NCBI RefSeq assembly: GCF_034092465.1
Contig: NZ_CP139303.1
Span: 62,001 to 126,000, forward strand
Reading direction: 5' to 3'
Length of the DNA stretch: 64,000 nt
Origin: Prochlorococcus sp. MIT 1223
Lineage (GTDB): Bacteria > Cyanobacteriota > Cyanobacteriia > PCC-6307 > Cyanobiaceae
Below are positions 42,006-51,185 of the stretch, piece after piece. Every line of letters begins with the position of its first letter. Positions within the stretch are counted from its first letter, which is position 1. The notes beneath the pieces are model-generated. The model was not told where the DNA came from, ran no database searches, and worked only from the letters and a program-made list of their open reading frames with translations. Position numbers and translations under genes: made by a program.

Positions 42006-42232
42006 AATTTTCTTTTTTGATCACCCTTTTTACGTTAACAAGTTAACGAGAGATTGTGTTTATCTATTCGCCATGTTACTTGTTTTCGAGAAACATGTTC
42101 TGAGTTGAAAACCTTCCAACATCTTAAGTACTTAATGAGGGAAATTATTTGACTTATAGAAAAAACTTTAGAGCAAAAGCTTGAATAAATAGTTTTTTCA
42201 ACCTTAGATAAAATAAATGAATTAGCTGGTAA

Positions 42233-42319
42233 CGGAGGGGGTGGGATTCGAACCCACGGTGCCCTTGCAGACACGCTAGTTTTCAAGACTAGAGCCTTAA
42301 ACCACTCGACCACCCCTCC
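42233..42319 (-). tRNA. tRNA-Ser (anticodon TGA)
   Basis: The reverse strand folds as an 87-base class-II tRNA. The acceptor arms GGAGGGG and CCCCTCC pair perfectly, with G as discriminator. The anticodon stem-loop has CTAGT / ACTAG stems around the loop CTTGAAA, giving TGA. A long variable arm (GTGTCTGCAAGGGCAC region) and the T arm GGGTTCGAATCCC are clear. No CCA is encoded. It lies just before the surface-polysaccharide island. Confidence 0.97.
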
Positions 42320-42519
42320 TAGCTTGTCGACTGATCGCCGACAATTACACTTTAGCAACAAGCAGTACAAGATTTACCATGAGCAAGACTTCGCTGGAAC
42401 AAAAACACTAAAAATTCTTTTGTTTCATCGTTTTAATGTCTTTTGAGGCTTTGGGGCTAAGAAGCATCCAAATACTTAAAAATTCAACTATAGTCCTATT
42501 GATGAAATTATGCCTGCTA

Positions 42520-46403: not shown

Positions 46404-47650
46404 TTGATGTTATCATTTAGTGAGTTGAATGATAAAGTATTGATAATTGGAGCAGGAATGGTAGGTTTGTCGATTGCTAATCAGCTTGTAGATAGAAAAA
46501 TTTCCAGCAATATTGTCTTAATAGAAAAAGAAGATTTACTTGGTCTCCACAGTTCTGGAAGAAATAGCGGTGTTTTACATGCGGGTATTTATTACAAGCC
46601 AGGATCGTTAAAGGCGAAGGTTTGTATCAGTGGAGCTAAGCGATTAAAAAAATGGATCGTTCAGCGAGGCTTGCCAATATCAAATTGTGGGAAATTAATC
46701 GTTCCACAAAAAAAGAGTTAGACTATATGATCGATGTACTTTATGAAAGAGGTTTAGAGAATGGTGCAGATGTAAGTATTTTAGGGAAATCAGCAATAAG
46801 TCAAATAGCACCAATAGCTAGATCTTCAACTGGTAGAGGTTTATGGAGCCCAGGGACATCTGTTACTCAGCCAAAGATTGTCATAAAAAAGCTAGAGGAA
46901 GAATTATCTTGTAAGGGTGTAAAAGTAATTAAGGGTGCAAATATCATTAATGTCGATGAGGATAATAAATTTTTAGATATAATGTCTAAAGGAGAATTAT
47001 TTAGAATTAGATATATACATTTATATAATTGTACTGGATTGCATTCCGATAGAATCGCAAAATTATTTAACGTAGGCAAAGAATACCTTTTACTACCATT
47101 TAAAGGACTATATTGGAGAGTTAAAAAATCATCAAATATTTCTCTTTCAACTAACCTTTACCCAGTCCCTGATTTAAATGTACCTTTCTTGGGTGTGCAT
47201 TTTACTCCCAGTGCAGAATTGGATCCAACTATACATATAGGTCCAACTGCAATTCCAGCGTTAGGTAGGGAAAATTATGAAAAATTCAAAGGAATCGAGC
47301 CTTTTATGACCTTTAGGAATTTTACTATTCTTGCCAATCAATATATAAATAATAAAAATGGCTTTAGAAATTATGCACGAGATCAAGCTTTTCTATCACT
47401 ACGCCCACTATTAATGGAACAAATTAAGCTTATCATTCCTGAAATAGATATTAATGATATAGAAAAAAGTAACAAGGTAGGAATCAGAGCACAATTATTT
47501 AACAAGAAGAAAAATGAAATTGTGGATGATTTTCTCTATGTCAATTCTGGTTCAAGTACACATATATTAAATGCAATTTCTCCTGCTTTTACAGCTAGTT
47601 TTTCTTTAGCTGATTTGATTATTGATGAGACAATTAACATCTATACTTAG
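46404..47650 (+). pseudogene. Split L-2-hydroxyglutarate oxidase-like FAD protein (frameshift at a slippery site)
   Basis: Two overlapping frames, 46404-46721 (105 residues) and 46652-47650 (up to 332 residues), together give one FAD-dependent oxidase resembling LhgO. The first holds VLIIGAGMVGLSIANQL and HSSGRNSGVLHAGIYYKPGSLKA; the second continues with ELDYMIDVLYERG to the C-terminus. The break lies at a run of seven A (46708-46714). In the upstream frame this reads CAA AAA AAG AGT TAG, so 46709-46715 is an in-phase A_AAA_AAG heptamer and a -1 shift joins the frames exactly. It may be a true pseudogene, a homopolymer error or a shifted gene. Confidence 0.75.
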
Positions 47651-47741
47651 CCTTGATTAATTTAAGTCAAACTTACCTTATAACTATCTATCTGTACTAA
47701 CTATAAAACTATTATTAAAATATGTTAGGAAGTCAAATAAT

Positions 47742-48725
47742 CTATTCTTCGCAATAAATTATTTGACTTCCTAAGGAATCAAATTCAAATGGTACATGTA
47801 CGTATTCTTTTAAAGCAGAGCGTATTTGTAAGTGCTTTTCAGGATTTGCTACAAGAAGTATAAATCCTCCTGATCCAGCCCCAAGGAGTTTACCTCCCGA
47901 AGCTCCGGCATCAATGGCCTTCTGATAAATAAGATCAATATGATCATTACTAATTTTTTCAGATAGTTGTTTCTTTATTTTCCATGATTCATCTAATAGA
48001 GATCCAAAATCGGTTATAGGTAGGTTAGAAAATAGAATATCTTCTGCCTCTTTTACAAAATCTTGTAATTTAAATAAGTAGTCTTTCTTTAGTTTGAAAT
48101 TCTCAACTAATGACTTAGATATATAACTAGATGTTCTAGATATACCGGTAAAGAATAAAAGTAAATGTGATTGGAGGTCTTCCTTTCTTTTTTTTGAAAT
48201 ACATACTGGCTTGATTTCTATGGAAGAGTCTTTTGGAAAGTTGATTATATTGAGCCCACCGTATGAGGTGGCATATTGGTCTTGATATCCGCCTACTTCA
48301 TTAAGAACATTTATTTCTAGATCTATTGCATCTAAGGCTAGTTTTGACTTACTTATTTTTACATTCTTATATGCGTATATAGCATTTAACAACCCTACTA
48401 CGAAAGATGAGCTACTCCCTATCCCAGACCTGGCTGGTAGGTCAGAGTCGCAATGTATTTCTAGACCTTCTTTTATCTTTGATTCTTTAATGAGAGCTTT
48501 TACAGCTGTGTGTTTCAGATCTTCTATATCTTTCACATTTTCAACAATAGAATATGCAACTCTATATTTGAAATCAAAAAATGGAGGTAGTTTCCTAAGT
48601 GATATATAGCAATATTTATCGATAGTAGTTGAAATTACAGTACCAGAGTGCTCTTTAAACCAAGAAGGATAATCCGTTCCTCCTCCGAAAAATGACATTC
48701 TAAATGGAGTTCTTGTGATAATCAT
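47742..48725 (-). CDS. hddA: GHMP sugar kinase, D-glycero-D-manno-heptose-7-phosphate kinase-like
   Basis: A 327-residue GHMP kinase. Residues 1-20 (IITRTPFRMSFFGGGTDYPSWF) match the HddA/FucK-type opening. The ATP motif DLPARSGIGSSSSFVVGLL is near residue 94, and GASGGKLLGAGSGGFILL near residue 275 is motif 3. HddA phosphorylates heptose-7-phosphate at C1 to give the 1,7-bisphosphate, which GmhB, next upstream on this strand, then dephosphorylates. A 3' TTCGCAATAAATTATTTG tail is not a clear terminator. Confidence 0.85.
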   Translation of the reverse strand: MIITRTPFRMSFFGGGTDYPSWFKEHSGTVISTTIDKYCYISLRKLPPFFDFKYRVAYSIVENVKDIEDLKHTAVKALIKESKIKEGLEIHCDSDLPARSGIGSSSSFVVGLLNAIYAYKNVKISKSKLALDAIDLEINVLNEVGGYQDQYATSYGGLNIINFPKDSSIEIKPVCISKKRKEDLQSHLLLFFTGISRTSSYISKSLVENFKLKKDYLFKLQDFVKEAEDILFSNLPITDFGSLLDESWKIKKQLSEKISNDHIDLIYQKAIDAGASGGKLLGAGSGGFILLVANPEKHLQIRSALKEYVHVPFEFDSLGSQIIYCEE

Positions 48726-48735
48726 ATATTTTGAA

Positions 48736-49320
48736 CTATATATCCTTTGACAATATAAAATCTATTGCTGATTTTATATTGCTCTTTCTGTAATTTGAAA
48801 AATTTTCATTTGTGAACTGATTACAATTAGTGCTATCAGGTAATAAGATAGTTTGTAAACCTGCTTTACTACCTGCTTCTACATCGCTAGCTTTATCTCC
48901 TATTAGCCAGGACTGATTTAAATCTATATTCAGATCTCTCGCTGCTTCAAGAATCATTCCAGTACCAGGTTTCCTACATTGACAATCTTTTATGTATCCA
49001 TAATCTGGATGATGAGGACAAAAGTAAACTGCATCCAGCCTACCTAAATTCATTGATATTTGTTTGTGTAACCATGTGTGTAAGTAAAATACTTCTTTTT
49101 TTGAGTAATAACCTCTAGCTATACCTGCTTGATTAGTTATTACTACTATTTTATATCGTGACTTGCTTATCGAAACTATACTTTCAAGAGCACCTTCGCA
49201 CCATTCCCAATCACTTATCTTGTGCAAGTATCCTATTTCTTCATTAATAGTTCCATCTCTGTCTAGGTATATAGCTGGAGCCTTTGTGAGATTATTATTA
49301 GAGAAAATTTGTTTATGCAA
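48736..49320 (-). CDS. gmhB: D,D-heptose 1,7-bisphosphate phosphatase
   Basis: A 194-residue HAD phosphatase. The nucleophile motif YLDRDGTINEE has Asp20 and Asp22. The zinc knuckle CPHHPDYGYIKDCQCRKP near residue 100 is diagnostic of GmhB and histidinol phosphatases. WLIGDKASDVEAG near residue 140 holds the Mg-binding acids. It removes the C7 phosphate of heptose bisphosphate. The gene is 10 bp from the kinase and 12 bp from the epimerase, so they form an operon. Confidence 0.9.
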   Translation of the reverse strand: MHKQIFSNNNLTKAPAIYLDRDGTINEEIGYLHKISDWEWCEGALESIVSISKSRYKIVVITNQAGIARGYYSKKEVFYLHTWLHKQISMNLGRLDAVYFCPHHPDYGYIKDCQCRKPGTGMILEAARDLNIDLNQSWLIGDKASDVEAGSKAGLQTILLPDSTNCNQFTNENFSNYRKSNIKSAIDFILSKDI

Positions 49321-49332
49321 TTTATATTGTTA

Positions 49333-50268
49333 TTAAACATTTTTATACTCAGAAACTTTTATCATCTGATATCCCTTAATAAGTTCTTCAATTCCTTCCT
49401 CAAGTGAATGAACAGGTAAATAACCTGTAGATTCTATTTTTTCATTGCTTACAATATAATTTCTTTGATCTGGATCCTTACCAATTTTTGCTTCAATAAT
49501 TTCAAACTCAGTAACCTTTTCTTTAATTCTTTTGCAAAGCTCCAACTTTGATAGATTAGCTTCAGATAAACCGACATTGTATATTTGCCCTTTCATTTTA
49601 GAGATATTTTCAAGTCCATGAAGAAAGACTCTACTTACATCTCTTATATGAATATAATTTCTTTTAAATGAACTTTCAAATAAAACAACCGCTCTATCAT
49701 TAACGGCTCTATATACAAAGTCATTTACTAATAAATCAATTCTCATTCTAGGAGACATGCCAAATACTGTGGCTAACCTAAAACTAATTGAATTTTCATG
49801 CTCTAGAAGCTTTTCTTCGATCTTCACTTTATCTATGGCATATTTAGAAATCGGACGGAGCTTAGATTCTTCTGTGCAGAAATTATTTTCATCACCTGTG
49901 CCATATGCACTATTTGTAGTAGGCATAATAATAATTTGACTCTCATGAACATTCTTAAATAAATTAAGAATAGAATCATGATTAACACTTTCGGCGTTAT
50001 AAGGATCTTGTGCACAAATAGGAGCTCCAACTAAAGCAGCAAGAGGAAATATCACGTCATGTTCTCTTATTAGTTTATTAATTAGGCCTTCATCCCTAAC
50101 ATCACCTCTAATTATATGTAGATTTTTGTTGGTACATAGATGAGCCAAGCCAGATTGACGGTACATGAAATTATCTAAAACAGTGACTTTGTACCCTTTG
50201 CTTAATAGATCAGGTACAACTATTGAACCAAGGTAACCTGCACCACCTGTTACTAGAATATTAATCAT
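49333..50268 (-). CDS. NAD-dependent nucleotide-sugar epimerase/dehydratase
   Basis: A 311-residue extended SDR. ILVTGGAGYLGSIVVPDLL at residues 4-22 is the NAD motif, TTNSAYGTG near residue 116 carries the Ser/Thr and the following tyrosine, and YAIDKVKIE near residue 143 is the YxxxK. It belongs with GDP- or dTDP-sugar modifying enzymes. Being upstream of gmhB in the same run, it may modify the heptose nucleotide. No more precise substrate can be read. Confidence 0.82.
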   Translation of the reverse strand: MINILVTGGAGYLGSIVVPDLLSKGYKVTVLDNFMYRQSGLAHLCTNKNLHIIRGDVRDEGLINKLIREHDVIFPLAALVGAPICAQDPYNAESVNHDSILNLFKNVHESQIIIMPTTNSAYGTGDENNFCTEESKLRPISKYAIDKVKIEEKLLEHENSISFRLATVFGMSPRMRIDLLVNDFVYRAVNDRAVVLFESSFKRNYIHIRDVSRVFLHGLENISKMKGQIYNVGLSEANLSKLELCKRIKEKVTEFEIIEAKIGKDPDQRNYIVSNEKIESTGYLPVHSLEEGIEELIKGYQMIKVSEYKNV

Positions 50269-50489
50269 TTGATGATTTCATGGGTAAAAACTCATTAGTA
50301 CCAACCTCTTTAAGGAAAAAAATGAGATAATACTACTTTTTCTTGATCTCTAAATATACATCATTAATGGGAAGATCGAAAATCATGTTACTTGATGAGA
50401 ATTGATTTCGGCTTAATACTATAAGTTATTTAATTATATTGAGTTATTAACTTATAGATTTAGCCTTAAAAGGAAGCTATATTAATTTC

Positions 50490-51185
50490 TCATTTTATAA
50501 ATCTATCTAAATCTTTAATAAATCTATAATAATCACTAGGGATTCCAATATCAATAAAGTCATGATCTTGCCAACTAGCACTTAGCATTTTCTTTTCGGC
50601 TAAAATGGGAAGGAAATCTTTCTCAAAGGAAAACTTACCATTGAATAAAATAAGATTTTCTAAAATCTTAGACTTGCTTATTAAATAACATCCTGTATTA
50701 ATAATCCTTCCACCTTCTTCTTCATCAAATTCAATGATATTTCTATTATTATCCAATCTTATTGATCCATAACGATTATTTATTACAATTTCTTTTATAG
50801 AAACAGTTATTGATTTATTGGATTTACAGAAATCAGAGTAGAGCTTTTGAAGATCAATATTATTCCATGTATCTCCATTAAGGATAATTATATTTTCTGA
50901 TTTGAACTTGAATGATTCGAGTGATTTCTTGATCGCCCCACCAGTTCCGAGTGGTTCATCTTCTTCTACATATTTGATTACTGCCCCTTGGTAATTATCC
51001 CCAAAGTAATCTTTGATTCTCTTAGACAAGTAACCCGTCGATAGGACGAATGTGCCAACACCTTTGTCTATCCAAGAGCTAATTAAATAAGACAAAAAAG
51101 GCTTGCCACCCACCTTTGCCATAGGCTTGGGAACATCGTATACGACTTCCCTTAGGCGTTTTCCTAGCCCTCCACAAAGAATCAT
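50490..51185 (-). CDS. hddC: D-glycero-D-manno-heptose 1-phosphate guanylyltransferase-like
   Basis: A 231-residue nucleotidyltransferase. ILCGGLGKRLREVVYDVPKPMAKVGGKPFL at the start is the NTP-transferase signature, EPLGTGGAIKKSL near residue 79 is typical of HddC, and LNGDTWNNID near residue 100 holds the metal-binding Asp. HddC transfers GMP to heptose-1-phosphate to form GDP-heptose. The first residue is not certain, because the reading frame stays open upstream and homologs usually begin a few residues earlier. A 221-bp gap separates it from the epimerase gene. Confidence 0.85.
   Translation of the reverse strand: MILCGGLGKRLREVVYDVPKPMAKVGGKPFLSYLISSWIDKGVGTFVLSTGYLSKRIKDYFGDNYQGAVIKYVEEDEPLGTGGAIKKSLESFKFKSENIIILNGDTWNNIDLQKLYSDFCKSNKSITVSIKEIVINNRYGSIRLDNNRNIIEFDEEEGGRIINTGCYLISKSKILENLILFNGKFSFEKDFLPILAEKKMLSASWQDHDFIDIGIPSDYYRFIKDLDRFIK

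Follow-up and report, generated by a model that had tools for sequence, protein, structure and literature searches.

Split LhgO-like oxidase gene of Prochlorococcus sp. MIT 1223 as a probable homopolymer frame lesion

The window, meaning the whole stretch of 64,000 nucleotides analysed here, corresponds to positions 62001-126000 of a single-contig genome of 1,795,922 bases with 36% GC. The whole genome was covered in stretches, each analysed as a separate piece. The window carries a gene for an LhgO-like FAD oxidase whose nearest named relatives belong to Prochlorococcus, and its coding sequence is divided between two reading frames. The features of the locus are as follows.

46404..46721, plus strand: 5' part of the LhgO-like FAD oxidase, the dinucleotide-binding part of DAO (ORF list; Pfam DAO profile 1-93, 70 bits)
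46652..47650 from the first ATG, plus strand: 3' part of the oxidase, in the -1 frame; the homologous part starts near 46709 (ORF list; Pfam DAO profile 103-337)
46685..46709, plus strand: 8-bp hairpin adjoining the A-run (46685-46692 pairs with 46702-46709), on conserved C-G...P-Q codons
46708..46714, plus strand: A7 run where the frame is lost (sequence; homologue spacing implies A8 when intact)
46709..46715, plus strand: in-phase A_AAA_AAG heptamer, an automatic by-product of A8-to-A7 loss
Left of the oxidase, minus strand: C-methyltransferase, epimerase and glycosyltransferase genes
Right of the oxidase: heptose-pathway genes for a HddA-like GHMP kinase, a GmhB-like phosphatase, an SDR epimerase and a HddC-like nucleotidyltransferase

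The oxidase gene stands alone on the plus strand. The cluster at 47742-51185 (minus strand) resembles a D-glycero-D-manno-heptose nucleotide pathway in which the HddC-like member is a guanylyltransferase, with most members scoring below curated cut-offs. Just beyond where the convergently oriented oxidase and kinase genes end, there is a strong 20-bp inverted repeat (47726-47773), which a scan finds to be terminator-like on the minus strand. On the other side of the oxidase, a 111-codon ORF at 42035-42370 (minus strand) is spurious and overlaps tRNA-Ser(TGA) at 42233-42319. Of the 400 genomes sampled in the family, about 35 have an oxidase copy of this type (identity of about 48% or higher), and a neighbourhood comparison indicates that the genes flanking the window's copy are not common to the homologues in relatives. 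This patchy presence and unshared neighbourhood fit an accessory gene, which the oxidase probably is. The genome has no other intact paralogue at a similar level of identity.

The split is real in the analysed sequence. The upstream ORF (46404-46721) comprises 105 codons and ends CCA CAA AAA AAG AGT TAG, with the TAG at 46719-46721. The seven A residues at 46708-46714 are directly followed by G46715, and in the -1 frame the break reads AAA AAA GAG TTA GAC and stays open up to the stop at 47650. The first-pass annotation had described an oxidase split at an in-phase A_AAA_AAG, where a -1 step on 46709-46715 restores the frame exactly, and its coordinates and sequence proved correct; moreover, the two halves match consecutive stretches of the Pfam DAO profile. 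The gene has another A7 run at 46646-46652; it precedes the break by 62 bases, in the portion whose frame has yet to be lost.

When the two frames are joined, and only then, the protein passes the curated cut-off of the NCBIfam profile for L-2-hydroxyglutarate oxidase (NF008726), which it matches end to end with 301.2 bits against a cut-off of 299. L-2-hydroxyglutarate oxidase is thus the predicted class, and because the score lies barely above the cut-off the substrate is uncertain.

Homologues were taken from collections that contain one genome per species, three of them from the genus. None of the 33 non-redundant homologues at 45-59% identity is interrupted, and the homologues align without gaps and with identical spacing through the break site, at which the window lacks one base. 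Thus, the intact reading would be CAA AAA AAA GAG, with a run of eight A residues. The nearest relative (59% identity) has VPQKNELD at this position, coded CCT CAA AAA AAC GAA TTA GAC. There are no instances of AAAAAAG at the site among 108 homologues, and none of the homologues has an A-run there like that of the window. The first-pass annotation had proposed that intact homologues lacking the slippery heptamer would mark the split as an error or a recent mutation, and this is the pattern found. Three copies in relatives were considered as possibly decayed: one (G275) was first flagged with stops and became an ordinary open copy on realignment, and two (G119 and G039) yield only uninformative fragments.

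Since the homologues are intact, equally spaced and free of AAAAAAG, the split is explained by loss of one A from an A8 run. We give a probability of roughly 55% to a recent A8-to-A7 deletion that arose through replication slippage and left a null or nearly null allele of a solitary, accessory LhgO-type oxidase gene within a surface-polysaccharide and heptose region. Replication slippage would have removed one A from the oxidase gene, and most translation would then stop after about 105 residues, ahead of the remaining FAD oxidase. Such an early stop would make the allele null or nearly so. Perhaps some full-length oxidase arises nevertheless, because the lesion sits in an A-run where unprogrammed slippage by the ribosome or by RNA polymerase might yield a little enzyme; we infer that its level is low. 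A starting run of eight is not rare in this genome: its long ORFs (200 aa or more) contain 153 of them, besides 387 A7 runs.

The state of the rest of the gene can be read in more than one way. Among columns with at least 95% conservation across the homologues, all 31 that precede the break are retained in the window, as are 71 of the 72 that follow it (102 of 103 in total), the same retention as in intact copies. The lesion would therefore be very recent, or not present in the cell, or bypassed. A gene that appears otherwise pristine fits a very recent lesion, although it is equally compatible with a functional gene whose break is bypassed, and this counts against the deletion. A further weak point of the deletion reading is that the closest homologue is merely 59% identical.

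The second explanation is a sequencing or assembly error, in which case the oxidase would be intact in the cell, with eight A residues, and the read of the homopolymer would have missed one. This is a distinct possibility, though a less probable one than deletion. The near-complete conserved columns agree with it, as does the position of the lesion exactly within a homopolymer. Isolated frameshifts with intact homologues and BLASTp or Pfam support have been attributed to indel mutations or sequencing errors, with BLASTp-validated singletons expected to be mostly errors (PMC3711429), and for a singleton of this kind the latter expectation weighs against deletion. However, a screen for other frameshifts gives a different impression of the assembly. 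The comparison set 600 ORFs, drawn from a 0.8-Mb portion of a relative's genome, against this genome, and none of the 496 with good homologues is split across frames, a count that applies to well-conserved genes and leaves the A-runs inside them uncounted. In the same search, LhgO homologues do show the two-frame HSP pattern by which the screen would recognize a split gene. The assembly thus seems clean on the whole, which tips the balance slightly towards a real mutation, and the clean result in a genome with so many A7 and A8 runs suggests that homopolymers are generally well read. We therefore infer a deletion rather than an error.

Another explanation is that the allele is phase-variable, with the run toggling between A7 and A8 so that the oxidase is on or off within the population. 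The gene does lie in a surface-polysaccharide region, a usual setting of phase variation, and A-runs are prone to indels (PMC3812077). However, a run of seven or eight A residues is not unusual in this genome, and the gene encodes a metabolic oxidase rather than a glycosyltransferase. There is also no homologue with such a run at the site, and thus no contingency tract has been kept. A switchable allele is for these reasons improbable.

The arrangement could also reflect programmed recoding on A_AAA_AAG/A7, either as a -1 ribosomal frameshift or as slippage during transcription, with the full enzyme made alongside a product of 105 residues. The in-phase heptamer is identical to the E. coli dnaX site (PMC5009743), a hairpin adjoins the A-run on its 5' side, and conserved residues are kept in the 3' part. 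The heptamer itself is nevertheless of little value as evidence. Removing one A from CAA AAA AAA GAG gives CAA AAA AAG AG, so that an in-phase A_AAA_AAG must result and a -1 step must repair the frame; the motif is thus produced by the lesion. Nor is it beyond chance, as there are 105 in-phase copies in 101 of the 1,086 ORFs of at least 200 aa genome-wide. The usual stimulators are not apparent either. Downstream sequence folds no better than shuffled versions (z of +1.31 for 80 nt and +0.26 for 50 nt), and by eye there is no AGGAG-like stretch, as a Shine-Dalgarno-like stimulator about 10 nt upstream would need, in the 18 nt before the heptamer (GAAATTAATCGTTCCACA), with a GTGGGA present farther upstream. 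There is no evident role for a 105-residue fragment of an FAD domain, and the site is not conserved. Candidate dnaX-type recoding was rejected on the absence of conservation and of stimulators.

A hairpin on the 5' side of a slippery run can influence slippage during transcription, and the 8-bp stem was considered in this role. Stems of at least 8 pairs are found at 20 of the 902 A7 sites in the genome (about 2%). The same conserved codons, which partly force the structure, give stems of 6-7 bp in several intact homologues. The hairpin was rejected as a stimulator and is judged incidental. Known functional cases of transcript slippage use 9-11 A residues, and the programmed form is recognized by a conserved run of roughly eight A/T or longer, whereas the run here is A7 and the homologues have no such run. 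Nothing points to evolved or regulated slippage at the oxidase A-run, and programmed recoding is very unlikely. We consider it just as doubtful that the allele is maintained, with -1 slippage on A_AAA_AAG, helped by the 5' hairpin, giving enough oxidase for selection in the lineage.

The split is most likely an ordinary homopolymer frame lesion, with deletion the leading cause, a read error second, and a switchable allele or recoding unlikely. The first-pass annotation had left programmed shifting, transcript slippage, a switchable allele and a plain error side by side; a recent indel or a sequencing error is the part that stands as likely, and a programmed shift finds no support. The finding mainly carries a caution for AT-rich genomes, where the loss of one A from A8 can automatically yield an in-phase "dnaX heptamer" with exact -1 repair. 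The heptamer and exact repair alone are no evidence of recoding, and conservation of the site must be checked first.

Among known systems, the programmed -1 frameshift of E. coli dnaX, to which the first-pass annotation had likened the locus, shares with it the in-phase heptamer alone. The oxidase lacks the downstream stimulatory hairpin and a well-placed Shine-Dalgarno stimulator, its site is unconserved, and a -1 shift would yield the full enzyme, whereas the dnaX shift yields a shorter product. The genome's own dnaX was rejected as an internal precedent, as it is one unsplit frame of 580 codons that lacks an in-phase A_AAA_AAG; of its two long A-runs, one is CAA AAA AAC and the other GAA AAA AAA GAA.

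Another likeness is to A-run frame lesions where slippage could leak full-length protein. Indels in an A8 run of M.HaeIII are bypassed in E. coli without a programmed element (PMC3812077), and transcripts slip on an A11 run in tssM (PMC4256274). The oxidase run is shorter, at seven, and bypass of it would be hypothetical. Genome-wide RNA data indicate that single-base insertions increase with the length of A/T runs, with no frame-restoring transcription error found (PMC5574713). By analogy with the unprogrammed bypass in M.HaeIII, some full-length oxidase is conceivable, and weak, non-programmed bypass of the lesion is possible. The joined protein resembles LhgO (NF008726; Pfam DAO, PF01266) in its end-to-end profile match, and the gene differs in a frame that is broken after residue 104.
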